Source: Flavipsychrobacter stenotrophus (GTDB taxonomy: Bacteria; Bacteroidota; Bacteroidia; Chitinophagales; Chitinophagaceae). From it: DNA of 64,000 nucleotides. A program made the position numbers and the translations under genes. The notes under the pieces were generated by a model that was not told where the DNA came from, made no database searches, and worked only from the letters and a program-made list of their open reading frames with translations. How positions within the stretch are numbered: the stretch's first letter is position 1; each line of letters starts with the position of its first letter. Shown here in pieces: positions 10,444-53,854 of the stretch. The stretch covers positions 1 to 64,000 of the forward strand of contig NZ_PPSL01000005.1 in the NCBI RefSeq assembly GCF_002954265.1. Reading direction: 5' to 3'.

Positions 10444-10527
10444 GCCCAGATGGCGGAATTGGTAGACGCGCTAGACTCAAAATCTGGTTATCGCAAGGTA
10501 GTGCAGGTTCGATTCCTGTTCTGGGCA
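10444..10527 (+). tRNA. tRNA-Leu (anticodon CAA)
   Basis: The acceptor stem GCCCAGA pairs with TCTGGGC at 10520-10526, with discriminator A at 10527 and no encoded CCA. The anticodon stem CTAGA/TCTGG encloses the loop CTCAAAA, giving anticodon CAA. It has a long variable arm, the class II layout of leucine tRNA, and T-arm GGTTCGATTCC. Its 3' half is the integration site for the two islands that follow and is duplicated at 45510-45564. Confidence 0.95.
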
Positions 10528-10528
10528 C
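10474..10528 (+). repeat. Attachment site att1 (tRNA 3' end, 55 bp)
   Basis: The 55 bp from the anticodon stem to the end of tRNA-Leu are identical to 45510-45564. This is the tRNA-side junction of island 1, where integration kept the tRNA intact. Confidence 0.9.
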
Positions 10529-13603: not shown

Positions 13604-14425
13604 TTAGAATGGCAAATCATCTTTAGTCGATGTCACAGTCAAATCCTTATTCTTTCTTATTAGATACATTGCTATTGACGTAGAGAGGCCTACCATTAAT
13701 TCAGCTTCTTCAAAACTGGGCTCACCGTTTTCTTTTAGATGTCTTCCTTTTTCAGAAGAAAAGCCCCATATTTTTTCAATAATAATATCTATAGTTACAG
13801 GCACTATGTTTCTATTTTGTTTAATCAACGCCCCCAAGGTTTCATTCCTATTACCAACTATTTCTCGTGCTACTACTTCAAGACATGCAACACCATGTTG
13901 TATGGCACCTGTTATGTCGGGTATTGGTCTGCGGGACAAATCATTTATCGCTTCCTGAATTTCATTTTTCGCCGTATTCAATCCCGCGGTAACCATTATA
14001 TCTTCTGCTTTTCGCAAATCAGCTTCAAAAAATTCTTCGCCGCGATATGTAATTTGACCGTCTTCCAATTTCCACCCAATTCCATTTACTTTGAAATATT
14101 CATTTATCTCGTCTGTAAATCGGCTTTGATGGCGTCGTTCAATTTGATGATATAATGCTTCAATAATATCATAAATTTTAAACCAATCGCAATTATCAAT
14201 TAAATCTTGTATTTCATATCGTACATTATCATCACCCCAATTATTTTGTGTATCCGGTGCAACTCTTAATGTTTGGCAGATATAAAGTCGCACGGCTTTA
14301 GGAGTGTAACCATAAGCGTAGAGACTTTGAATAAGAAAACTTCGTAGCCCAGTAGGGGCATCCTCTCTCAAAATAATTTCTTTTTGTACAGAATTATATC
14401 CGTGTCTTTTCGAAAAGCTTTCCAT
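13604..14425 (-). CDS. AbiJ-like abortive-infection protein
   Basis: The 273-residue protein begins MESFSKRHGYNSVQ and has the AbiJ N-terminal domain pattern (REDAPTGLRSFL near 24-35). The C-terminal half matches the Abi-C/HEPN-like module: GAIQHGVACLEVVAREI, then IEKIWGFSSEKGRHLKENGE, with the R-x-x-x-H-like basic motif and an acid-rich helix after it. AbiJ-type proteins are phage-defence factors thought to act through HEPN RNase activity. The ATG at 14425 was preferred to a TTG at 14440. It lies between the broken XRE/ImmA module and a DUF559-like nuclease, all on the minus strand. Confidence 0.7.
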   Translation of the reverse strand: MESFSKRHGYNSVQKEIILREDAPTGLRSFLIQSLYAYGYTPKAVRLYICQTLRVAPDTQNNWGDDNVRYEIQDLIDNCDWFKIYDIIEALYHQIERRHQSRFTDEINEYFKVNGIGWKLEDGQITYRGEEFFEADLRKAEDIMVTAGLNTAKNEIQEAINDLSRRPIPDITGAIQHGVACLEVVAREIVGNRNETLGALIKQNRNIVPVTIDIIIEKIWGFSSEKGRHLKENGEPSFEEAELMVGLSTSIAMYLIRKNKDLTVTSTKDDLPF

Positions 14426-14509
14426 AATGATTTTTTTCAATTTAAATTTGATCTAAACCTATTTTCTTGACTCAAGAAACCTATTAAGATTTGATAAAAG
14501 CCCCATTAT

Positions 14510-18257: not shown

Positions 18258-18358
18258 ATTTCCGAGTTGGTAAATCGAAATACACTTCAAAGTAAGAAAC
18301 TGTCATATTTGAGCTTAACTTTACTATGATAAATAATAACTATTTACATAAAGACCCT

Positions 18359-19897
18359 ATGAACAAAATTGACATTATAGAGAAAATTGTTTCTGGTATT
18401 TCTGAATTCAAAATCATTCCTTTTTTTGGTGCAGGGATGAGTAAACCGTGTGGGGCACTTGACTGGCGAGGATTAGTTGAAACATTAAAATCGGAATTGT
18501 CAAATTGCGAAAATATTGATGATAATTTACTAATTGCGGAGCAGTATCAAATACAGTTTGGGAGAGATAAATTGATAGAGAAATTAAGAGATTTGTGTGC
18601 GTTGAAAATACGCACTTCAGATACGTATCAAAACCACCTTAAGATTCTGGCGATGAATCCCCCAATAATTTATACAACTAACTATGATAATGCTTTAGAA
18701 GAAGCTGCCGACTTAATATCAAAAAAATACCTAAAAATCGTTGGATTGAACGACATTGTCGCATCTCCTCATGGTTCAAATCAAATCATTAAATTTCACG
18801 GCGATTTTCAGGATGACCAAAGTATTGTTTTTACACGAAGTGATTATGACGAACGTTTAAAAATTGAAAGACATCCATTAGATGTACTCTTCCGTAGCCA
18901 TATTTTGGGAAAAAGTGTTTTGTTCTTAGGATATGGTTTTGGTGATGAAAACATTCAGTACATTTTTGAAAAACATAGTGAATTTTACGGAACAGACAAT
19001 CTACCGCCTTCCTACATTATCTCCTTTAGCCACAACAAAGTAAAGGAAGAAGAGTTAAAAAAGAAGAATGTGACAACTCTCGTATTATCATCGCCAGATG
19101 AACTAACATCATTAATAACTGAAATCAATTCTAAAGTTTTTGATAAAGGCAATGATTTTGATTTGACGTTTCTCAATCAAGATATTCACCGTGAAGTACT
19201 TTTGAATTTCGAGCTCGATAACTTGAAAAATTACATTAGCTCTACCAATCATACAGGCAAAGAAAAACATGACAAAATACGTCGAACATTAGAAATGAAG
19301 ATTTTGCCTAACGATGTAGAGCCCAATGTTGCAAAATTATTTATGGAATTCTTATCTGCTGATTATGAAACAGAAATAGTTGACGCCCTTGTCTTGGCAT
19401 TTGAACATGTATCATTTAGAAATTTCGAAAATATTATTTCTATTTCTTTCAAACTAATAGAATTGACAGAAAACCCACGATATGTTTTTAGTATGTCTAA
19501 CCCATTTTCATGGTTACTTGCGTTGATGAAAATAGAGATGAAATTATGTAAGGTTTTAGATGATGCAGCGGAGATAAGCAAATGGTATTGTTGTATTATT
19601 CTGGGTTACCTTGAAGGCCAAATTGCAGAAAAGAAAAGACTTGAATTTAATCAAGTTGATAGCCTTTTTATTGCTTTACAGACACATAATTATAACCAAC
19701 TTGATTTAGAAGACCGAGGCTTTACGAAAGAACAAATAGACGAGACAATTCAATTTTATATTGGACAGCACGGACAGATTTTACGCAACAGGCAACAGAT
19801 GGGTTCAGTGTCAAACGGCCCCAATATGTTCAGACGAAATTTAAAGAACATACAGAATCAATTAACTAATGGACTACCTAAAAATGTGATCGATTAG
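18359..19897 (+). CDS. SIR2-domain defence protein
   Basis: The 512-residue protein has an N-terminal SIR2-like NAD-binding domain (about 1-240) with FFGAGMS (G-A-G motif), TTNYDN and the histidine motif KFHGD. It also has LFRSHILGKSVLFLGYGFGD, typical of SIR2 proteins in phage-defence systems. The C-terminal half (240-512) is helical and unfamiliar; it may be the sensor. Defence SIR2 proteins usually destroy NAD+ on phage sensing. A start 11 codons upstream (18326) is possible. It heads a plus-strand run of four genes up to 21857, which may be one system. Confidence 0.75.
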   Translation: MNKIDIIEKIVSGISEFKIIPFFGAGMSKPCGALDWRGLVETLKSELSNCENIDDNLLIAEQYQIQFGRDKLIEKLRDLCALKIRTSDTYQNHLKILAMNPPIIYTTNYDNALEEAADLISKKYLKIVGLNDIVASPHGSNQIIKFHGDFQDDQSIVFTRSDYDERLKIERHPLDVLFRSHILGKSVLFLGYGFGDENIQYIFEKHSEFYGTDNLPPSYIISFSHNKVKEEELKKKNVTTLVLSSPDELTSLITEINSKVFDKGNDFDLTFLNQDIHREVLLNFELDNLKNYISSTNHTGKEKHDKIRRTLEMKILPNDVEPNVAKLFMEFLSADYETEIVDALVLAFEHVSFRNFENIISISFKLIELTENPRYVFSMSNPFSWLLALMKIEMKLCKVLDDAAEISKWYCCIILGYLEGQIAEKKRLEFNQVDSLFIALQTHNYNQLDLEDRGFTKEQIDETIQFYIGQHGQILRNRQQMGSVSNGPNMFRRNLKNIQNQLTNGLPKNVID

Positions 19898-21963: not shown

Positions 21964-23586
21964 TTATTTAATACTCTTATTCAGTTTTGTATTAATAGAC
22001 TTCAATACCTTGATAACTTCTGCTGCCGACTGCTTAAATTCAGCTAATGCATCCTCTCGATTACTTAGTGCCCACAACATGACTTCTTTAACAAGTACTC
22101 CTTTTGCATCCTGTTTTTTTAATCCATGGGGCATTTTGAGTACGGCTTGAACTTTTTCTTGAAATCGTTCTGGGTAATATTCTTCAAAATTATCCTTTAC
22201 AAAGGTGGAGAAGTGTTCTGTCGGCCAAGTTTTAAAGGCGCTCTGCAATTTGCTAATACACTCCTTGCCAGCACTATCTCCATCAGCAATCACCCAAGCC
22301 TTTTTATAGTACATTGGACTGGTGTGAATGAATACAAATAGTCTATTGAAATCATGAACTCTGACTTCAAGATCTTGTACCCCTTTTGCAGCTATTGTTT
22401 TTATTTTTCCGTAAAGTTCTGGTACAAAATTGGGAATCAGGAAATCACGAATAACATATTCTGCGGATGATTCTTCTAATATTAAGTAGGACTGGTGCAA
22501 CTCAAAATCAAAAAAATCGTAGCCCAATTTACTAAGAATATCCAATCTGGTTTCCGGCTTATTATCGACCTCTTTTACTGTGGTAGTTGGTACATTTTCA
22601 TTGATTCCATCAATCTTCGTTTCTGCTTTCCAATCGAAAAAGAAAATTTTGCTCTTTGGAGCTGCGCCTAAATATTTTAAAACGATGCTGGAATGTGTGG
22701 AAATGACAAACTGATTACTGCTTGCCTTTTCAATAATTAAATCAAGCAATTTTTTTAGTGCCTTTGGGTGTATATCGTTCTCTAATTCTTCAACTAAAAA
22801 AAGCTTGTTGTTTTCCGTAAGTAGAATAACAATGAAGCCTACTATATTAGCTACCCCATCGCCCATTGAACGAATTGGAATCATTGACGAATTGACAGAA
22901 TACATTCCAGGCTCATTTCCATTCGCGCTCTCTGTTGGAATCACACCGACTCTGAAACCAAGAATATCTTCGCATAGCTTGTTGTACCTATCACTATTTC
23001 TACTTGAAATAATTTTGATGATTTTTGCAGACAAATTTCTTAGAGTGTCAGAGACTTTAAATGTCTGATCTCTACCGGTATTAGTATCATAGTACTCTGT
23101 TTTTCTTTTTGAAAGAAACGGATAAATAAAATTGTTTAAATTTTCATTATCTGAAAATCGGGGAAAATCAGAAATATTCTCCTTAAAATCAGACTCCTTC
23201 TGAAACTCCACACGATCGCCCTTAACTCTTTTGACTTTATCTTGGGAATTGTAAAATAGATTTTCCTCAACTCCATTAACGCTATATATACCCCACATTA
23301 TTGTAAAACTGGTACCAGTTCTATTCAACTTATCGCTTTTTGAATAAAGTACTGTCTTTTCAATTTCCGACACATCAACAATACTAATGTAAGTTTTCGC
23401 ATAAGTGGCAGATGTTCTAATATCATACTTATCGAAGGATCGATTTTGAAGATTATATAACGCCTTTATAACTGTTGATTTCCCAGAGTTATTAGCCCCT
23501 GTTATAAGGTTTATGTTCTCCGACAGTTCAAGAAGGGTATTTTCGTGACTTTTTACATTTATCAATTCAAGCGATTTTATTTTCAT
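21964..23586 (-). CDS. OLD-family ATP-dependent endonuclease
   Basis: The 540-residue protein has an N-terminal ABC/SMC-like ATPase with Walker A GANNSGKST (about 29-37) and Walker B/D-loop LFLVEELENDIHP, plus the STHS His switch. A C-terminal TOPRIM domain contains LEESSAE and VIADGDSAG. This is the class 1 OLD layout, as in P2 Old; length is normal. OLD nucleases cut DNA and act in phage exclusion, alone or with UvrD-like GajB helicase in Gabija. No helicase is adjacent, so a stand-alone OLD is likely. The ATG at 23586 is preferred to a TTG two codons earlier. Confidence 0.85.
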   Translation of the reverse strand: MKIKSLELINVKSHENTLLELSENINLITGANNSGKSTVIKALYNLQNRSFDKYDIRTSATYAKTYISIVDVSEIEKTVLYSKSDKLNRTGTSFTIMWGIYSVNGVEENLFYNSQDKVKRVKGDRVEFQKESDFKENISDFPRFSDNENLNNFIYPFLSKRKTEYYDTNTGRDQTFKVSDTLRNLSAKIIKIISSRNSDRYNKLCEDILGFRVGVIPTESANGNEPGMYSVNSSMIPIRSMGDGVANIVGFIVILLTENNKLFLVEELENDIHPKALKKLLDLIIEKASSNQFVISTHSSIVLKYLGAAPKSKIFFFDWKAETKIDGINENVPTTTVKEVDNKPETRLDILSKLGYDFFDFELHQSYLILEESSAEYVIRDFLIPNFVPELYGKIKTIAAKGVQDLEVRVHDFNRLFVFIHTSPMYYKKAWVIADGDSAGKECISKLQSAFKTWPTEHFSTFVKDNFEEYYPERFQEKVQAVLKMPHGLKKQDAKGVLVKEVMLWALSNREDALAEFKQSAAEVIKVLKSINTKLNKSIK

Positions 23587-23650
23587 AGCCAATTCTTATT
23601 TCAGCTAAATGTACATAACAACATCTTGAAATACTAACTGTTGCAGTGCA

Positions 23651-23667: not shown

Positions 23668-25173
23668 CTAATCTGCCTCGTTTGATGCTAAGCAATAGTG
23701 TATACTGTCAACTTTGTCAAGAATTTGAGTATCCAAAACTCTACCGTTAGCTATTTCTACATCGTCATCAATGTCGCATTCAAATTCAATGTCGTTGGAA
23801 CCAACTATAGGAATGTAAGTTATCTCCATCGTTTTATTTTTGTATTTAACAATCGCATCAAGATCTATTTGTTCTTCTTTCCAGTATTTCTTTATCGTCC
23901 TTATGCCAATTTTCTTACAGCCTTTCCTTGCAGCAACAATCTCTATCAAATCATGAACCTCTTGCTGTGTAGGTTTCTTAGAAAGTGCAAAGCGTAAACA
24001 ATCGGAGAAAGGATTAATAATATTATGCTTTGCACTTTTCGATTTAAATATTTCTAATAGTTCCTTAGCAATAGTTATAGCCTCTATAGTCTTATTCCTT
24101 TTATACAAACTTGCCATTTCAATTGCCAATGATCTTCTTTGAGAAGGTGAAATTGTCTTTTCTTTGCAATGAAAGATTTTAGTTCTTGTAACAGGATAGA
24201 TTTCGCCAGTATTTTTAATGCCATTATAAATGAAATTGAAATGTCCTTGTAGGTCTCTGAAAGTTGCTTCTGTTACAGTTTTATTTTTATTCAACCATTT
24301 TATGTAGTTAAAGATATATGCCGGATCAACATCTGGATTCATATAATAGAGATTGTGAATTATTTGAGCAAAAACTGCGTGTTTCTTTCCATCGGGTATC
24401 TTATAAGCAGGTGGCAAAAAAACATGACAGTAGTCAACAGGTCTCATGTCGAATATCCTATTCTTCACTTCAACTTCTGTTTTGAACTTTAGTTTTTTTA
24501 TCACTTCTGTGATAGGAATACGTTCATACTGAGAAAGTGCATTCTGTAAACAATCGGAAGAAGAAGTAATAATATTATGCTTTGCACTTTTTTCAAGATT
24601 CTTTTCTTTTGTAAGAATATACTGTTCCGGTATTTCTATTATGGCAGAAGGATTATAATAACAATCAGGATCGTATGATATGTACCAGGCATTGGACTTA
24701 CTTTTCGTTTGAGGATCTAAATTTAAATCAGTGAAAATATATTCGCAGATATATCGCCTTATACTATCGAAATTGTCAGCAGTAATCTCATTTTCAACTT
24801 TTGTAAAGAAAGACAAACCTTGTCCTGAGCAAGACAAACATATCATTGATATGAAATCCCTATACTTCTCTATGATTTTGCTTTTCAAATTCAATGCATC
24901 GCCCTCTTTATCTATGTCGAAGTACATGTAACCGCTGAACTCTTTTATACTGGCATCATCACGATAGGTTACAGTGCAGCATGGTGTGATATTTGGCAGA
25001 AATCTCTTTAGCTTGACTTTGTTTGCTGTATATTTAGGATGTGTTGCATCAAGTGCTCTTATGGCCTTTATTGCTGGTGTGTCATTGACCTTGATAAGTT
25101 TTACAAGTCTTTCAATACTTATCTTCCTGTTTGGATTGCAGTCTCTAATCCCTTTTTCAAAATAACTGTACAT
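23668..25173 (-). CDS. VirE-N/BT4734-like protein carrying two in-frame palindromic inserts
   Basis: The 501-residue protein has the BT4734/VirE N-terminal domain (about 25-190): AIRALDATHPKYTANKVKLK, LPNITPCCTVTYRDD, YMYFDIDKEGD and the CSGQGLSFFTKV loop. Such proteins accompany primase/helicase genes in Bacteroidota mobile elements. The middle and C-terminal parts are unfamiliar. Two near-identical 19-residue runs (SAKHNIITSSSDCLQNALS at about 195 and SAKHNIINPFSDCLRFALS at about 379) come from the 57-bp palindromic elements at 24534 and 23982. The ATG at 25173 is preferred to an upstream TTG/ATG because the domain starts near it and a hairpin precedes it. Confidence 0.75.
   Translation of the reverse strand: MYSYFEKGIRDCNPNRKISIERLVKLIKVNDTPAIKAIRALDATHPKYTANKVKLKRFLPNITPCCTVTYRDDASIKEFSGYMYFDIDKEGDALNLKSKIIEKYRDFISMICLSCSGQGLSFFTKVENEITADNFDSIRRYICEYIFTDLNLDPQTKSKSNAWYISYDPDCYYNPSAIIEIPEQYILTKEKNLEKSAKHNIITSSSDCLQNALSQYERIPITEVIKKLKFKTEVEVKNRIFDMRPVDYCHVFLPPAYKIPDGKKHAVFAQIIHNLYYMNPDVDPAYIFNYIKWLNKNKTVTEATFRDLQGHFNFIYNGIKNTGEIYPVTRTKIFHCKEKTISPSQRRSLAIEMASLYKRNKTIEAITIAKELLEIFKSKSAKHNIINPFSDCLRFALSKKPTQQEVHDLIEIVAARKGCKKIGIRTIKKYWKEEQIDLDAIVKYKNKTMEITYIPIVGSNDIEFECDIDDDVEIANGRVLDTQILDKVDSIHYCLASNEAD
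23982..24038 (-). repeat. 57-bp palindromic element, copy A (in frame in CDS)
   Basis: Outer arms AAAGTGCAAAGCGTAA and TTATGCTTTGCACTTT are inverted repeats with one mismatch. It encodes 19 residues of the VirE-like protein in the same phase as copy B. Confidence 0.85.
24534..24590 (-). repeat. 57-bp palindromic element, copy B (in frame in CDS)
   Basis: Same length and phase as copy A. The left arm has diverged (AAAGTGCATTCTGTAA); the core ACAATCGGA and the right arm TTATGCTTTGCACTTT are kept. Confidence 0.85.
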
Positions 25174-33057: not shown

Positions 33058-33096
33058 TACCTTTTAATTTTAAATAGTCCACAATAGGAAACATAA

Positions 33097-33153
33097 AAAG
33101 TGCAAAGCATAAACAATCGGAAAGAGATATAATTATATTACGGTTTGCACTTT
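33097..33153 (-). repeat. 57-bp palindromic element, copy C (intergenic)
   Basis: Arms AAAGTGCAAAGCATAA and TTACGGTTTGCACTTT with the ACAATCGGA core. The minus-strand phase used in copies A and B is still open and would encode SANRNIIISLSDCLCFAL, although it is not in a gene here. Confidence 0.85.
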
Positions 33154-33159
33154 TTCAAT

Positions 33160-39954: not shown

Positions 39955-41135
39955 ATGGACATAAATATACTTAGGCAAATCATCGGAGCCTACAAAAATG
40001 ATTTCGCTCGGATCAGTAATGAAGAAATTTATAAGTGGCAAGCCGCACACACATATAAAAAAAATGGGACATTAACAGCCGTGATTTTTCTAACATGCTT
40101 CACGATGCTTTAGATGGAACCCTAAACCTGATGTCCTCAACTAACTACTACCCTCGAAGAATGATAAACACATACGCAGGACTTGAGCCGATTCTTGTGA
40201 GGGATGCTTTCATCCGGTTGTTCGATGAGGACAGAGATTTAATATCTCGAATGAAAATATTTCAACAGGATATTAGGGTTATACATGATTTACACATCAC
40301 TGATGATCGCGTGCCATACCAAGACGATCGTGCGGTGATGGTTTATTTGGCTTTGGAATACCCCGAGCGATACTACTTTTACAAATTCACAATGTTCAAG
40401 GATTTTGTAGAGCAGGTAGCATACCCATACCGTCCCAAGCCTGGTAGCTCTGAAAATATACTTCACTTTTTGAATGTATGTAACATAGTCCTTGGCGAAA
40501 TCGAAAACGATGATGAATTGATAAACATGCATCTCAATCGCCTGGGCTCTACTGAATATCCAGATAATCATTTGCATATCTTGGCGCAGGATGTTATCTA
40601 TGCCGCAGTACAACATCTTTTGGTACCCAACAGGGGCGTGACATTACCAGTAAATGTTACTGTTAATGCTGGGGAGTATGTCGCCACCAATATCGAACCA
40701 TCCTTACAGGGGGCGTTTATAAATCATATACAGAATGCGGAGAGAAACAAACGTATCGGTGACTTGGGTGAACTGTTTGTTATGGAATGGGAAGAGAAAA
40801 GACTTCGTGGTGTCGGTGTAATGAATCCTCGAGTAACACACGACTCGAAAAATATCGGGGATGGTTTAGGTTATGATATTTCGTCTTATTCTGACGATAG
40901 GCTTGTTCGATACATTGAGGTGAAGACAACAACAGGTAATATAACTCAACCCTTTTTCATTACAGCAAGTGAGTTAAAAAAGAGTCAAGAAGATACGAGG
41001 CGGTTCTATCTTTATCGTGTATACAACTACAACCCCGAAACAAAGGCAGGTGAAGTCTGGATTATACAGGGAGAGCTCACCCAATATTGTGTTAGCCCAA
41101 GCGTATATGAGGTTAAACTTAAGCAGGTTGTATAA
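39955..41135 (+). pseudogene. DUF3883-domain protein, frameshifted near its start by a poly-A run
   Basis: From the ATG at 39955, the frame reads an alpha-helical start with NEEIYKWQAAHTY. At eight A (40057-40064) the frame is lost; one base fewer continues as WDINSRDFSNMLHDALD in the main frame, open from 40095 to 41135. The C-terminal DUF3883 domain has GDLGELFVMEWE (about 230), DGLGYDI and YIEVKTTTG. The D-x-E-x-K residues fit a PD-(D/E)xK nuclease-like fold. DUF3883 proteins occur in restriction and defence loci. As with the DUF4238 gene, the frameshift could be sequencing error, decay or slippage; a shorter product from 40095 is possible. Confidence 0.75.
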
Positions 41136-45509: not shown

Positions 45510-45564
45510 GACTCAAAATCTGGTTATCGCAAGGTAGTGCAGGTTCGATTCCTGTTCTGGGCAC
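45510..45564 (+). repeat. Attachment site att2 (tRNA-Leu 3' copy, 55 bp)
   Basis: Identical to 10474-10528. It lies between island 1 and island 2, lacks the tRNA 5' half and is not a functional tRNA. Confidence 0.9.
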
Positions 45565-45580
45565 CTAAATCACAAGTAAG

Positions 45581-45617
45581 AACCTCATACCTGACAAGGG
45601 TTTGAGGTTTTTCTTTT
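45581..45617 (+). terminator. Terminator behind att2
   Basis: AACCTCA (from 45581) pairs with TGAGGTT (to about 45609), followed by TTTCTTTTT. It occupies the same place relative to the tRNA end as the hairpin at 10552. Confidence 0.65.
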
Positions 45618-45624
45618 TGTATTT

Positions 45625-45641
45625 GGGACGGATATGGGACG
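45625..45641 (+). repeat. Candidate integrase arm sites, left end of island 2
   Basis: GGGACG at 45625 and 45636 (period 11), 61 bp inside att2. It differs from the TTGCA pairs of island 1. Confidence 0.45.
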
Positions 45642-45697
45642 CCTTTCAAGCAAATAAAAGAAAACAACTTAAGGGTTGATGATAATACGGAGGAAAA

Positions 45698-45729
45698 ATT
45701 TGGGTTTCCTTTTGGAAACGGAAACCCAA
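45698..45729 (-). terminator. Perfect 11-bp hairpin, minus-strand terminator-like
   Basis: TTTGGGTTTCC and GGAAACCCAAA (45719-45729). On the minus strand a short T run follows. The rest of the 45642-46086 region (445 bp) holds the direct repeat at 45741 and A/T-rich sequence before the array; no gene is supported. Confidence 0.55.
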
Positions 45730-45740
45730 ATAAAATAAAT

Positions 45741-45790
45741 TTCTTTTCAGGGGACTTTTACCTTTGGAGAGTGACCGTCTCAAAAGAAAC
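45741..45790 (+). repeat. Direct repeat shared with 51009-51062
   Basis: TTTTCAGGGGACTTT and, about 30 bp later, CCGTCTCAAAAGAAA occur in both places, with imperfect sequence between. One copy lies behind att2 and one behind att3. Confidence 0.65.
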
Positions 45791-46086
45791 CGGCATAAAA
45801 AGCAGTATTGTGCACATACTACAAATCTTGAATAGCCGGAAAGAAAATACAACATAACTCTCTTTTCCAATGACCTCTATTGCAAATAAGAGCAACGAGC
45901 AGAAGGCAGGAATATATCATTGATTTCACCTTAAGAACTGTCCTAATTAGGTATTCTTCGAACTAGAAATCTACCTATTAGAACCCAGCATTTAGGATTT
46001 CTTAAAGCTAATATCCAATGAAAACCAATGTGGAGTTATTTTTATTTTAGCAGGATAGATTAAAGAAGAAACACTTTTAATCTCTT

Positions 46087-47438
46087 TCACTGATTTGCTT
46101 TCAACATTTAGTACTTTCAAGGTCTTAGACATCCATCAACAATAAGAACCCCGTTAGGATTGGTTGTGATTTGCTTTCAACATTTAGTACTTTCAAGGTC
46201 TTAGACATCTAGTGGTGATCACTTATGTAGGTCTTACCTCTTGTGATTTGCTTTCAACATTTAGTACTTTCAAGGTCTTAGACATCTCAACCGTGAAGAC
46301 GTAGACAACGATAACTGTTGTGATTTGCTTTCAACATTTAGTACTTTCAAGGTCTTAGACATCTAATTAAAAATTGATGCATTAGCGAACTATGTTGTGA
46401 TTTGCTTTCAACATTTAGTACTTTCAAGGTCTTAGACATCATAGATATTGCCAGGCACTAATAAACATTGGTTGTGATTTGCTTTCAACATTTAGTACTT
46501 TCAAGGTCTTAGACATCCCTGAACGCCAGCACCCCTATCGAAAAGCTGTTGTGATTTGCTTTCAACATTTAGTACTTTCAAGGTCTTAGACATCCTTAAC
46601 GACGCTATAGAGGCAACAGAATCTGTTGTGATTTGCTTTCAACATTTAGTACTTTCAAGGTCTTAGACATCGAAGATAAGAACGCTCTGGCCCATGTAGC
46701 GTTGTGATTTGCTTTCAACATTTAGTACTTTCAAGGTCTTAGACATCCCTGAACGCCAGCACCCCTATCGAAAAGCTGTTGTGATTTGCTTTCAACATTT
46801 AGTACTTTCAAGGTCTTAGACATCTTTGTGCTCAATCTGGCACTTAATGCAGCCGGTTGTGATTTGCTTTCAACATTTAGTACTTTCAAGGTCTTAGACA
46901 TCGCATACCCTATGTTTATAAGGTCGCAATCTGTTGTGATTTGCTTTCAACATTTAGTACTTTCAAGGTCTTAGACATCAGATAATGACTACCTCAAAGC
47001 GCCGGCACGTTGTGATTTGCTTTCAACATTTAGTACTTTCAAGGTCTTAGACATCATAGAACTGCTGCCCAGTCATTGCCACATGTTGTGATTTGCTTTC
47101 AACATTTAGTACTTTCAAGGTCTTAGACATCTTTTTCGACTAAGCCCGGCACAACTCCGGGGTTGTGATTTGCTTTCAACATTTAGTACTTTCAAGGTCT
47201 TAGACATCTCATGATCGCTTTATTTTATCTGTGAACCTGTTGTGATTTGCTTTCAACATTTAGTACTTTCAAGGTCTTAGACATCATGGTTCGGCTATTA
47301 CATCAGCACACCAGTGTTGTGATTTGCTTTCAACATTTAGTACTTTCAAGGTCTTAGACATCCTTAATGAGCAGGTAGCGAACGGTAAACTGTTGTGATT
47401 TGCTTTCAACATTTAGTACTTTCAAGGTCTTAGACATC
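46087..47438 (+). CRISPR. CRISPR array, 18 repeats of 47 bp, type II-C-like, no cas genes
   Basis: The repeat starts GTTGTGATTTGCTTTCAA and ends GGTCTTAGACATC, with 17 spacers of 29-31 bp. The first 18 bases match the start of Bacteroidota type II-C (Cas9) repeats as I remember them. Repeat starts: 46087, 46163, 46240, 46317, 46394, 46471, 46548, 46625, 46701, 46778, 46856, 46933, 47009, 47085, 47162, 47239, 47316, 47392. The first repeat has TCAC instead of GTTG at its 5' end and repeat 3 has C at base 1. Spacers 6 (46518-46547) and 9 (46748-46777) are identical. No cas genes or anti-repeat were seen in this window. Orientation follows the II-C repeat form and is inference. Confidence 0.95.
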
Positions 47439-48313
47439 CTTAATGTAGATTCATCGTCAAGATTTGATAACTCTTCGTATAGCCAAACAAGTAGTTCTCC
47501 TCGCAATGTCATCATTTCTTGATGCTTGCTTCTATTGGGGTCAAAGACGTCTTTGAAAGTCCTATCAGACTGGATTCTGAAGAACAGAAACTGGCTAAAT
47601 AGTCCATTTTCGATATCGGGAATTAATTTCTTGAGTTGATTTTCCGTGCTACTAAGTAAAATTGTTAAGCAGGGTCTTTGGATTACAATTGTTCCACTCG
47701 TTTTTCTGCTCATGCTAAGGGTTTCATGCTCGAATGCAACTCTAAGGAGGTCGGAAAAGTTTCCATGTTCTGATTTATTCGCGGCTGATACAGTATCAGT
47801 CTCAGTTTCAACTATTATTCCTCTGGAGTGATTTTCTAACAGTATTTTGTAAAAATTGCTCTTGGTATTGTTTGCGGGTATGATCAACATTGCCTCAGTC
47901 TTGTCAACGTCGTTTATTTCTTGTTTGACTCTGTTTCTTTCAGTCATTTCCCTTTGAATTGGCATTATCAATTCCTTGCACGCTGTTAGGCCTCCCTTTC
48001 CGGAGCCGAATGGCCCTATAATGTATCCATAAAGGTTTGCTTCGTACCTCTTACCTGCGTATTTGGTATAGTAGCCGGGCAAAACTCCGCTGATTAGGAC
48101 AATCGAACTGAATAGAGCCATTGCTTTTTCCTGCTCCGTCTCATGTTCATCAGGAATGGGTTTAAGAATGTCGGGCAATATCTTGTATATCACCGTCGGA
48201 AATTTTGAGCCTTCTTCCATCAGTAAGTCCTCTACTGCGAAATCGTTCATCGATTTCATTTTACCTATATTTACTTGATCTTTATTCGACTTTACTTTGT
48301 TTCTTGTTGTCAT
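47439..48313 (-). pseudogene. DUF3987-family protein, truncated by the CRISPR array
   Basis: The gene (ATG at 48313) encodes a DUF3987 ATPase-like domain: ANLYGYIIGPFGSGKGG (Walker-like P-loop), IIVETETDTVSAAN, and SMSRKTSGTIVIQRPCLTIL. DUF3987 proteins are replication/primase-helicase associated and common on Bacteroidota mobile elements, usually 450-700 residues. Here native similarity stops near residue 290. The last codons run straight into the last CRISPR repeat (RMSKTLKVLNVESKSQ) and stop at 47354. The array or a deletion event therefore removed the C-terminal half. The excisionase-like gene lies 73 bp upstream in the same direction. Confidence 0.8.
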
Positions 48314-48386
48314 TTCAATTGATTCTGTTGTTAAGAATATTACCATAGTGGTCGTATAGCAGCCACTATGGCAGTCGTTTGGTTGA

Positions 48387-48668
48387 TTACCTATGTTTTA
48401 AAGTGATTAGCGCTTTCTCGAGTATTTTGTCTCTAGTTGGCACCTGATTTTGCATAGCCCATCGAGTCACCTGATGGCGTTCGAAGAAAAGGGTCTTCCC
48501 CTGAATCTTGCTGTGAGGGATGATACGTTGATGTGTCCATTTGTAGATGCAGCTTTTGCTGACACCTAGGTAACATGCTACTTCATCGACTGACAGTAGT
48601 CGCTTTGAAGTCCTCATCTGAAAGAGCATCTCTTGAATTGTTGCTGTTAAGTTTTCAATTTTTGTCAT
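48387..48668 (-). CDS. Excisionase-like helix-turn-helix protein
   Basis: The 93-residue protein has the HTH_17/excisionase pattern: LLSVDEVACYLGVSKSCIYK followed by WTHQRIIPHSKIQGKTLFF (wing). In Bacteroidota elements such proteins sit between the integrase and DUF3987 genes and act in excision or regulation, exactly as here. The start MTKIENLTATIQE and A-rich leader look right. It lies 33 bp after the integrase gene, so both are on one transcript. Confidence 0.8.
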   Translation of the reverse strand: MTKIENLTATIQEMLFQMRTSKRLLSVDEVACYLGVSKSCIYKWTHQRIIPHSKIQGKTLFFERHQVTRWAMQNQVPTRDKILEKALITLKHR

Positions 48669-48701: not shown

Positions 48702-49760
48702 TTAAAATGTGAATGATGGCAGTTTTTGAATTGCCTGTTGTTTTAATGAATCGCTGATTCTGACATAGCGCTGACTCGTTGAAATATTAGTGTGACCTAA
48801 CAGCTTGCTGGCGATAGAAATGTCAATACCCTGTGCAATCATTTCTGTTCCATAGGAATGACGAGCACAGTGGAATGTTATGTGTTTTTCTATTCCTGCA
48901 TCACGTGTCCAGTTCCTGATAATTTTCAAAGCACCGGTATGTGAAGGGAGTTTGAAAATCAAACTTTCTGAGTTGCCTTTTTCTCCTAACAAACACAGAG
49001 CATCATTATTTAGAGGTATCGTGACCCGGCTCTGCGTTTTGGATTGTATTATGCTGACAGATTTTGATTGAATGTTTTTCCAAAGCAATTGCTTAATGTC
49101 TACCCACCTGAGGCCAGTGGTTAAGGCAAATAAGAACGCTCGTCGTACATTGTCATTTCCGCAAAATGTGTCATATAGTCTTCTTATCTCTTCAGTTGTC
49201 AAAACCTCCTTTACGATGTATGAATACTGTTTCACACGAATCCTCCTAGTTGGATTATTCCTAAATAACAGTTCTTCTGTTGCTGCATCAATAATTTGCT
49301 TTAGCTTACTGAAATAATTATGAGCACTTTCTCCTTTAAGTTCGTTTTCGAGTGATTTGGCAAACCTTTGCATTGCAATCTCTGTCATTTCAAATGCTGG
49401 TATTTTATCCTTGCCAAAGAATGTCTTGAGTCTATTTAACACACCCCAGTATTTTCTCTTGTCTTTTACAGCATGTTGGTTGATGAAGTTGACTGCGTAT
49501 GCAATGAAGTCTTCGGTAATACGGTAATCTTCCTGGAGCATGTACTCCCCATTCAGCATCCTTTTAGTTTCCTCATTGGCAATCTTCCTTGCGATTATCA
49601 TTTTCTCCTTCTTTTCTTCTCGCTCCTCAAATGTTGACGGATTGGTTTTGAATTGAAGTTTCAATGATGTTTTTATTCTGACGCCGTCAATTGTGCGAAT
49701 CAGGATTAAGCTTGTTTTGCCTGTCGCCTTGCTCTTTTCTTCATAAATTTTCGCTGTCAT
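48702..49760 (-). CDS. Tyrosine recombinase (integrase of island 2)
   Basis: The 352-residue protein has an N-terminal arm-like domain, a core-binding domain (about 70-160) and a full catalytic set: TTGLRWVDIKQLL (Arg), HCARHSYGTEM (H-x-x-R), LLGHTNISTSQRY (His and Tyr). It looks intact and active, unlike the rest of island 2. It is the first gene of the integrase-HTH-DUF3987 run. It differs in type from the two island-1 integrases, which fits the different arm-site repeats. Confidence 0.9.
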   Translation of the reverse strand: MTAKIYEEKSKATGKTSLILIRTIDGVRIKTSLKLQFKTNPSTFEEREEKKEKMIIARKIANEETKRMLNGEYMLQEDYRITEDFIAYAVNFINQHAVKDKRKYWGVLNRLKTFFGKDKIPAFEMTEIAMQRFAKSLENELKGESAHNYFSKLKQIIDAATEELLFRNNPTRRIRVKQYSYIVKEVLTTEEIRRLYDTFCGNDNVRRAFLFALTTGLRWVDIKQLLWKNIQSKSVSIIQSKTQSRVTIPLNNDALCLLGEKGNSESLIFKLPSHTGALKIIRNWTRDAGIEKHITFHCARHSYGTEMIAQGIDISIASKLLGHTNISTSQRYVRISDSLKQQAIQKLPSFTF

Positions 49761-50154: not shown

Positions 50155-50409
50155 ATGAAACAAGAGCTAACTCCTGAAGCTATTTTTGAAATTATTTCAA
50201 AACAGGACTTTGATCAATCTACTGGGATTGAGAAAACTCAGTACTATGAATTGATTAATACTTATAGAGGTATGAAACTCAGTCAACTTCGTACAATGAG
50301 AGATTTGGAGACTGAGAATGAGAAACTTAAACAGAAAAACAAGGAATTGTCAAGAGTGGAAACCGCAATCGAAGACCTAAAAAAAAATTCCAACTCTAAG
50401 AAGAAATGA
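50155..50409 (+). CDS. IS3-type transposase OrfA-like protein
   Basis: The 84-residue protein has a helical HTH-like N-terminus and a C-terminal leucine-rich coiled coil (LETENEKLKQKNKEL), the layout of IS3-family OrfA. The run AAAAAAAAATTCC near its 3' end resembles a slippery site for making the OrfAB fusion. OrfB follows in the +1 frame but is truncated. It is a remnant, and the transposition function is lost. Confidence 0.6.
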   Translation: MKQELTPEAIFEIISKQDFDQSTGIEKTQYYELINTYRGMKLSQLRTMRDLETENEKLKQKNKELSRVETAIEDLKKNSNSKKK

Positions 50410-50829: not shown

Positions 50830-50846
50830 ATTCCTGTTCTGGGCAC
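50830..50846 (+). repeat. Attachment site att3 (17 bp of tRNA 3' end)
   Basis: ATTCCTGTTCTGGGCAC equals the last 17 bp of att1 and att2. It is the outer boundary of island 2 with the chromosome. The gap 50705-51340 holds this site, the arm pair, a degenerate palindrome (50780-50793), a terminator and a direct repeat; no gene. Confidence 0.75.
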
Positions 50847-50962: not shown

Positions 50963-51008
50963 ATGGCAATGTTACCTCTATCAACCATTGACAGGTTGTA
51001 AGTCATTT

Positions 51009-51062
51009 CGTTTTCAGGGGACTTTAAGATTTTTGAGAGGTAGTCCGTCTCAAAAGAAATCT
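51009..51062 (+). repeat. Direct repeat shared with 45741-45790
   Basis: TTTTCAGGGGACTTT and CCGTCTCAAAAGAAA recur as in the earlier copy, behind the att3 terminator. Confidence 0.65.
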
Positions 51063-52564: not shown

Positions 52565-53854
52565 CTACTTCCCCTCCTCCTTCTTCTCGGGCAATGGGCC
52601 TTTCTGTACTTTGCCTTCTGTCCATTTGCCTTTGGCTTTTTCTTCGTAGTTGCCCATGCGGGTCTTACTTTTCAGAAGGGTATCTTTGGTTAGCTTAAAG
52701 TACATTTCACAGCGGCTGCAATAGAGGAGCACATAGGTGCCTGTCTCTTCTATGGTAGTCAACGTATATCGCGGATAGCCGCCATACACATTGTATTCAA
52801 ACCAAAAGCCGTCGTTGAACCGGATAAAGTAGCCGTCTCTTTCGTCAGACTGGTAGGCAAATACGTTTATGTCTGCCGCCATTACTTCCATCAGGCTCAG
52901 GCCATCTTCGCAGCTTATCCAGTTGCCGTTGTATATCTTGTTGTTAATGTCGTTGCGGCTATTGCCCCAGTAAGATTCATCTTCTGTAAGCCTTACATAT
53001 ACCGTTCGGGTAGGATCAAAAAGTACCACTTCATCGGGCGATTCCTGCACCAGCTGATACTTAAACCTTACCACGCGGTCTTTTATCCTTACCTCCTCCC
53101 AATCGTTACCACCCGCAGGACGGTAGATAGAATGATAGTTCTCGTCGGTAGGCTTCAGATAAAAGGCGAACGCCATGTTCTTATGTATGTCTTTACCCGT
53201 CTTTACTACCTTTTCAGACACATTGTGTTTTACCCAGTGGCCGGTATAATTCTCTATAAATCCTTTAGGGCTGTTGGCGGCATTGTAGTAAACACCTGCG
53301 GCAGATACCTGCATGTAATACCCACCTCTGTTGTTAGACAGCAACAAGTAATCCTCTTTCTTCTCCGCTACAGAATAGGTATTCAGCAGTATGCCATCGT
53401 CATAAGTATACTCCAGCCACTTGTTATCTTTACCCGTAGTAAAAAAGCCACGGCACTCCTTCTTCTCATAAAAAAACACCTGCTGTTTGGCTTTTATATA
53501 GTGTTCTGCAGGCTTGCCATTGCAGTCTTCGCTCCAGTAGCCATCATGCACCTTTTGGGTTATATTGTCTTTGCTCTCCCCGCTAAAATATTGCGTTGCT
53601 GTAAGGCGCACATACTGCTTTCTTTCTTCGTCATACAGTGTTACCTCATTTCCTTGCTCGCTCACCATTTTATAGTGGTAGCGCGGCCGGTTCTTTAGGG
53701 CATACATCTCTTCCCACTTACCATCTCCCTTAGTGATCAGGTAGTCGTAAAGGCCATTTTTCTGATCATAATAAAAGATAAACGCACGCTTTCCTTTGGC
53801 GGAGGCGGCCAGTGAGATCATGCATAGTAACAGGCAGGCGAGTATATTCTTCAT
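52565..53854 (-). CDS. Exported four-repeat protein, unknown
   Basis: The 429-residue protein has a Sec signal peptide (MKNILACLLLCMISLAASA). Four tandem copies of a roughly 95-residue unit follow. Each contains a YDQ/YLKP-like turn, a W-x-E or W-x-x-Y motif, and Y-x-R/K-LT (for example VRLTATQYF, VRLTEDESY, FKLTKDTLL). The repeats look like small beta domains that may bind a surface ligand. The ATG at 53854 keeps the signal peptide, while the frame from 53992 would not. No family recognised. Confidence 0.65.
   Translation of the reverse strand: MKNILACLLLCMISLAASAKGKRAFIFYYDQKNGLYDYLITKGDGKWEEMYALKNRPRYHYKMVSEQGNEVTLYDEERKQYVRLTATQYFSGESKDNITQKVHDGYWSEDCNGKPAEHYIKAKQQVFFYEKKECRGFFTTGKDNKWLEYTYDDGILLNTYSVAEKKEDYLLLSNNRGGYYMQVSAAGVYYNAANSPKGFIENYTGHWVKHNVSEKVVKTGKDIHKNMAFAFYLKPTDENYHSIYRPAGGNDWEEVRIKDRVVRFKYQLVQESPDEVVLFDPTRTVYVRLTEDESYWGNSRNDINNKIYNGNWISCEDGLSLMEVMAADINVFAYQSDERDGYFIRFNDGFWFEYNVYGGYPRYTLTTIEETGTYVLLYCSRCEMYFKLTKDTLLKSKTRMGNYEEKAKGKWTEGKVQKGPLPEKKEEGK

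Follow-up and report, generated by a model that had tools for sequence, protein, structure and literature searches.

A type II-C CRISPR array without cas genes between tRNA-Leu copies in Flavipsychrobacter stenotrophus, a probable remnant of a CRISPR-bearing integrative element

CRISPR arrays that stand alone are known as remnants of decaying systems (PMC8616872, PMC9071438), and in E. coli such orphan arrays hold anti-cas spacers (Almendros 2016, cited through PMC8616872). CRISPR loci are also found on mobile DNA. In Vibrio, CRISPR-Cas systems lie on integrase-bearing tRNA islands, including a type II-B system at tRNA-Met and a type III-A system at tRNA-Leu (PMC6360697), and phages and other mobile elements carry mini-arrays of one or two spacers, with repeats identical to those of the host and targets mostly in related viruses (PMC11656645). 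Within the Bacteroidota, the leader of the type II-C locus CRISPR1 of Riemerella anatipestifer lies on the stretch that separates cas2 from the array, and a 16-nt anti-repeat is described in the same paper (PMC5006608); type II-C arrays are reported to gain spacers at their 3' end (PMC12638026). A literature search, which is a weak test, found no published type II-C locus on a tRNA integrative element in Bacteroidota.

The locus described here lies in the first 64 kb of contig C21 of the F. stenotrophus draft genome, the whole of which stretch (64,000 nucleotides) is referred to as the window. The CRISPR array occupies positions 46087-47438 on the plus strand and consists of 18 repeats of 47 nt at a spacing of 76-78 nt. 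The consensus is matched exactly by 16 of the 18 repeats, the first differing from it in its first 4 nt and the third in 1 nt, and the 17 spacers, 16 of them distinct, measure 29-31 nt. Its direct repeats are nearly identical and regular in length, with spacers of similar length in between, which identifies it as a CRISPR array, and the 18 repeats and 16 distinct spacers reported in an earlier note on this DNA were recovered at the very same coordinates. Spacers 6 (46518-46547) and 9 (46748-46777) are identical; because the spacers between and beside both differ, this is no simple segment duplication.

Concerning the subtype, which the earlier note had given as type II-C-like, the most informative relative is a genome of the same genus (G199, contig L055), where a cas9 that is partial at the contig edge, cas1, cas2 and an array follow one another in this order (Pfam RuvC_III, HNH_4, Cas1 and Cas2). 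Type II-C loci lack csn2 and cas4, and no further frame of at least 100 aa lies between this partial cas9 and the array, and the sequence upstream of cas9 falls off the contig. The G199 repeat is identical to that of the window at 44 of 47 positions, including the whole of the first 19 nt, and judged by this kinship the array is of type II-C and belongs to the same repeat family, as the note had proposed. Among the 11 genomes of the genus, the present one included, a Cas9 match was found in G199 alone. Two of the others that lack such a match retain traces of repeats, with two degenerate repeats kept in G198 and a contig ending in a repeat in G196. Since G199 keeps the locus while these two keep repeat relics without Cas9, the II-C system appears native to this genus, with frequent loss. 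The relics in G198 and G196 also hint, by their sequence surroundings, at a shared old CRISPR location. They are found at L056 9216-9339 (G198:C3) and at the end of L057 (G196:C405), near a gene that looks the same by eye and that we take to be a putative tRNA nucleotidyltransferase.

At the family level, repeat-like DNA is present in 43 of 195 genomes, again counting this one. Wider stretches were read around the better repeat-like loci only, and 16 of these had readable cas genes; a locus at a contig start in G050, with no cas gene visible, is kept apart from the 16. An exact copy of the repeat was not found in genome_contigs, a collection from which records of this or near-identical genomes are possibly left out, and the first 37 nt with two ambiguous bases gave no match in genome_contigs or viral_contigs, where near-identical records may likewise be left out.

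Several parts that a functional type II-C system requires were not found here: cas9 and cas1 in the genome, cas2 beside the array, and a leader at its cas2-proximal end. None of the 20 window proteins scanned with Pfam matches a cas family, and tblastn with Cas9, Cas1 and Cas2 of relatives against the window and 19 kb around a solo repeat (see below) gave nothing better than E 0.36, the cas2 of G199 reaching E 0.55 at best within the window; the earlier statement that the 64 kb hold no cas genes is thus borne out. Over the whole genome the Cas1 profile (PF01867) has no match, with matches in 9 of 14 control genomes, and a two-row Cas9 profile has none either, while being positive in G199 at E 2.8e-17 and in all six array-bearing relatives to which it was applied, including the two that had supplied its rows. 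The profiles TIGR01865 and PF18541 were likewise negative here, which adds little since no control genome passed their cut-off, and a tracrRNA motif built from two family members found nothing here and no true match in G199, so that it is a weak test. The genome search that the earlier note had recommended for cas9, cas1, cas2 and a tracrRNA is in this way answered genome-wide for Cas1 and Cas9, and for cas2 over the window and the 19 kb just named. A complete II-C locus with the same repeat beyond the window, from which the note allowed that the array might merely have been split, was sought in the draft genome and not found. As far as the draft shows, the array is an orphan across the whole genome.

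The apparent loss could be a product of assembly, the cas operon being present in the cell and unassembled, or the junction at the array misjoined. The 5.43-Mb draft is in 21 contigs, repeats are hard to assemble and parts of the sequence are given as N. However, completeness is 98.85%, the array lies some 46 kb inside a 408-kb contig, and the gene joined to it (see below) holds no repeat copy that could cause a misjoin, and we regard an artefact as very improbable.

The only other place in the genome where the repeat was found is the single solo copy at C21:240198-240244 (L009 9199-9245), 40 of 47 positions identical, which directly follows an open frame of 1485 aa. Its flank bears a weak likeness to the G199 leader, with a score that 13 of 2906 control windows reach (0 of 500 when letters alone are shuffled). 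On this likeness it may be what is left of a second, older II-C locus. A role as tracrRNA was considered and rejected, as its identity spans most of the repeat, beyond an anti-repeat, and no terminator follows by eye.

The orientation of the array can be read from its relatives. Wherever cas genes could be read (16 family loci), the array runs towards cas2, which lies 92-148 nt from the last repeat in 15 of them (987 nt in G103, the exception), and the sequence past the last repeat usually closes, by eye, with a terminator hairpin. Scored against the G199 leader, the corresponding sequences of L035, L031 and L030 reach 99, 78 and 56, all above the 2906 control windows (maximum 44), whereas L029 and L032, with 38 and 35, stay within the control range. 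The sequence after the last repeat of the window array scores only 16, and no leader was recognised there. A degenerate first repeat at the cas-distal end, as in the window array, occurs in two of five family arrays scanned (L030 and L032); of the remaining three, L029 has single changes on the cas-distal side, L031 a worn repeat in mid-array and L035 none. Since the polarity of the relatives, the worn repeat and the leader scores agree with each other and with the literature, the left end of the window array, with its degenerate repeat, is most likely the natural old, cas-distal end, and the right, or acquisition, end has most likely lost leader, terminator and cas genes.

At this right end a DUF3987 gene on the minus strand (47439-48346) abuts the last repeat (junction 47438/47439), being cut after 302 codons where it runs into the repeat. 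Of 13 relative loci, 12 were compared, and in these the open frames of this gene measure 451-846 aa from stop to stop; similarity extends to residue 292-299 of the 302 in six of the 12, nearly to the junction, and ends at 266-268 in the other six. That the array had been inserted into the gene was considered as well and rejected, because the missing 3' part is not found on the other side of the array.

The integration site is a tRNA-Leu (CAA) gene at 10444-10528 on the plus strand. Its 3' part, att1 (10474-10528), is repeated with 55 of 55 bp identical as att2 (45510-45564, plus strand), and a 17-nt exact copy of its 3' end, att3, lies at 50830-50846, also on the plus strand. A 23-nt pattern allowing up to 3 mismatches misses att3, which is real but shorter; by rough arithmetic, a given 17-mer is expected in 64 kb less than once in 100,000. 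The first two copies bound a 35-kb island (10529-45564), of which att2 forms the right end, and att2 is also the left end of a separate 5.3-kb interval, reaching to att3, in which the array is located. The earlier note had placed the array between att2 and att3 of an integrase-bearing tRNA-Leu element, and both its position and the adjoining integrase hold, with the correction that the array is not within the large island. Further right, on the same strand as the DUF3987 gene, are a gene for an HTH_17 protein (48387-48668, from the Pfam scan), presumably with an excisionase-like role, and a tyrosine integrase (48702-49760) of 352 aa with Phage_integrase and SAM-like domains and an arm domain just under the Pfam cut-off. 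Both are open frames. A weak transposase-like frame (50155-50409, plus strand; HTH_Tnp_1 match below the Pfam cut-off) is a possible insertion-sequence remnant. The interval hence shows the features of a tRNA-targeted integrative element, namely an integrase and tRNA 3' copies of 55 bp and 17 nt.

The neighbouring tRNA-Leu island (10529-45564) carries two integrases and, among 10 proteins scanned with PADLOC, matches to PDC-S32 (13604-14440), SIR2/ThsA (18326-19897), an AAA ATPase like NsnB/AriA/GajA (21964-23592) and a NO VEIN C-terminal domain (40095-41135), and on these matches may be a defence island. It also holds three copies of a 63-nt repeat (23977-24039, 24529-24591 and 33092-33154), which are 83-86% alike to the first, whose ends are complementary (AAAGTGCAAAGC...GCTTTGCACTTT).

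The stretch between att2 and the array (45565-45927) may be an arm of the element or chromosomal flank, and it bears on the main alternative, in which the II-C locus was a chromosomal neighbour of tRNA-Leu and the adjacent integrative element later rearranged and deleted its cas genes, the array itself never having moved with the element. These 360 bp share 81% identity with what immediately follows tRNA-Leu in a genus relative (G089), where there is no array. Because G089 keeps them and the 4.5 kb read there contain no second copy of the att site, they may belong to the chromosomal flank, in which case the array may be a resident of the chromosome. The stretch past att3 is also weakly like the G089 flank (scoring 107, with shuffles reaching 71 at most). 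Yet a G089-type flank is shared by none of the six other genus loci with a readable tRNA junction, which speaks against a common native flank, and the position of att3, right of the array, counts against a resident locus as well. In G201 another sequence comes after tRNA-Leu, and the G201 contig that carries the right flank stops at window position 52692. A dispersed non-coding motif (TTTTCAGGGGACTTT...CCGTCTCAAAAGAAA) is seen at 45733-45862 and 51000-51060, about 155-170 nt past att2 and att3; it is found after tRNA-Leu in G089 too, with further copies on contig C13, in G200 and in G202.

Integrases are also rare near II-C loci in the family, which again favours a chromosomal origin: in 14 of the 16 loci none was detected in the stretch read (tblastn with four integrases, E 1e-6; 3.8-42 kb each). 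One of the two others, in G169, has an integrase match near the II-C locus and no tRNA in the 20 kb read. The other, in G093, is the one locus of the 16 shown within a tRNA element, and shows that a II-C locus can ride on such an element. Here a tRNA-Arg gene is followed, 11.7 kb away, by a 54-bp copy (96%) of its end, the element spanning 4802-16572 of L032 (G093:C10:48001-64900). Between the two copies lie a VapE/BT4734-like primase, an HTH_17 gene, an RteC-like gene (below cut-off), the array, cas2, cas1, cas9 and a tyrosine integrase, the array on the plus strand and cas2, cas1, cas9 and integrase on the minus strand, up to the att copy. This order of array, cas genes and integrase is the one expected, by analogy, for the window element before loss. 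The two are only partly collinear, however, a point for the chromosomal alternative: in G093 the primase, VapE-like and not DUF3987, and the HTH_17 gene lie between tRNA and array, whereas the window has its DUF3987 and HTH_17 genes between array and integrase. Taking both sides together, we consider a chromosomal relic possible and on the whole unlikely.

We therefore favour, as the probable though by no means certain explanation, that the array was orphaned when a CRISPR-bearing tRNA-Leu integrative element lost cas2, cas1 and cas9. A small element with integrase, HTH_17 and DUF3987 genes would once have carried the whole II-C set of array, leader, cas2, cas1 and cas9 and would have entered at tRNA-Leu, the array travelling with it. 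An internal deletion, possibly a single event, would then have removed leader, cas2, cas1, cas9 and probably the tracrRNA, so that the array's acquisition end came to abut codon 302 of the DUF3987 gene. The remaining bank of guides would be silent, as it could neither grow, for want of a leader and Cas1, nor cut, since there is no Cas9 to load the guides. As 16 of the 18 repeats are identical, the sequence suggests little time for decay since the loss, which would then be recent, although gene conversion among repeats would look alike. The guides would become usable again only if the cell gained, or the element entered, a Cas9 system with a matching repeat. Of the three roles considered beforehand for this array, the stranded leftover is hence the one that best suits the lack of Cas1 and Cas9, the missing leader and the cut DUF3987 gene, whereas the assembled genome of this host, in which no Cas9 was found, offers none for use in trans.

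To see what the guides recognise, the spacers were compared with several collections. Phage records gave nothing at the level of a spacer (best E 0.4), and plasmid records one array-like match at 74% and two 22-nt matches at E 5. The 16 distinct spacers were also joined and searched against 394 family genomes, at most two candidates per genome being scored; 270 genomes matched at E up to 1, the own array among them, and the three best matches off the array (E 0.0018-0.0027) span artificial joins, about one match of this class being expected by chance over the 394 genomes. The closest whole-spacer matches among the fetched loci are four: spacers 4 and 14 match at 25 of 30 positions (G243 and G274), spacer 10 matches at 25 of 31, in frame, a dnaB-like helicase gene of G196 and by this likeness may point to a helicase gene of phage or host, and spacer 17 matches a phage-contig gene at 23 of 29. 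In 0.40 Mb scanned of the present genome there is no dnaB-like gene and, off the array, no spacer match within 8 mismatches. A search of IMG/VR with pieces of seven spacers, out of the 16 distinct ones, returned two matches of 19 nt, about chance level if that collection holds some tens of billions of bases, and one of the two does not extend across the spacer. Anti-cas spacers were rejected, as none of the 16 beats the best shuffled spacer in any of seven cas stretches (G199 and six relatives, some partial). We thus note these whole-spacer matches and claim none of them, there being no convincing protospacer for any spacer searched; the expectation that the spacers target phages of the host or rival islands found no backing in phages, plasmids, the 394 family genomes or, for 7 of 16 spacers, IMG/VR, and the role proposed in competition between elements is left with neither a credible target nor an anti-cas spacer.

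These results bear on a further reading, in which the integrase moves a cas-less II-C array between hosts and arms, for instance against phages or rival elements, only those whose Cas9 and tracrRNA fit it. Its repeats are nearly perfect, its integrase and HTH_17 frames are open, and the 19 nt that begin the repeat, including the part that pairs with the tracrRNA, equal those of G199, with whose kind of Cas9 the guides might fit. Were it true, G199-like strains of the genus would be the hosts armed and G093-type elements the complete form. But no Cas9 was found in the host, neither the repeat nor, with two ambiguous bases, its first 37 nt turned up as an exact copy in the genome or viral collections (a single 74% array-like match among plasmids and none among phages), convincing targets are lacking, and the missing leader and cut DUF3987 gene point to damage and not design. 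Such a mobile library of guides is accordingly hard to credit.

Compared with described systems, the locus is close in make-up to CRISPR1 of Riemerella anatipestifer, sharing the 47-nt repeat and, through its relatives, cas9-cas1-cas2 beside the array, a leader between cas2 and array and new spacers on the cas2 side (PMC5006608); it differs from it in having no cas gene, no leader and no recognised tracrRNA. With orphan remnant arrays (PMC8616872, PMC9071438) it shares a genome without cas genes and a related genome that still has the system, whereas its repeats are barely eroded and its boundary with a mobile-element gene is sharp. As in the orphan arrays of E. coli (PMC8616872), cas genes are lost and the array is kept, here with no anti-cas spacer found against the seven cas stretches. 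Like the Vibrio loci (PMC6360697), it lies on an island beside a tRNA gene, though those islands carry cas genes and belong to other subtypes and another phylum. With mini-arrays (PMC11656645) it has in common an array on a mobile element without effector genes, but it holds 17 spacers and has no host system found and no known targets. Orphan arrays and island-borne CRISPR loci are both already published, and the window array gives no new mechanism. It looks, rather, like a fresh fossil of CRISPR loss, with the leader gone, the spacers intact and the breakpoint beside the last repeat, inside a mobile-element gene. Together with the tRNA-Arg locus of G093 it suggests one route to such arrays, by which a whole Cas9 system arrives on an integrative element and then loses its cas genes.
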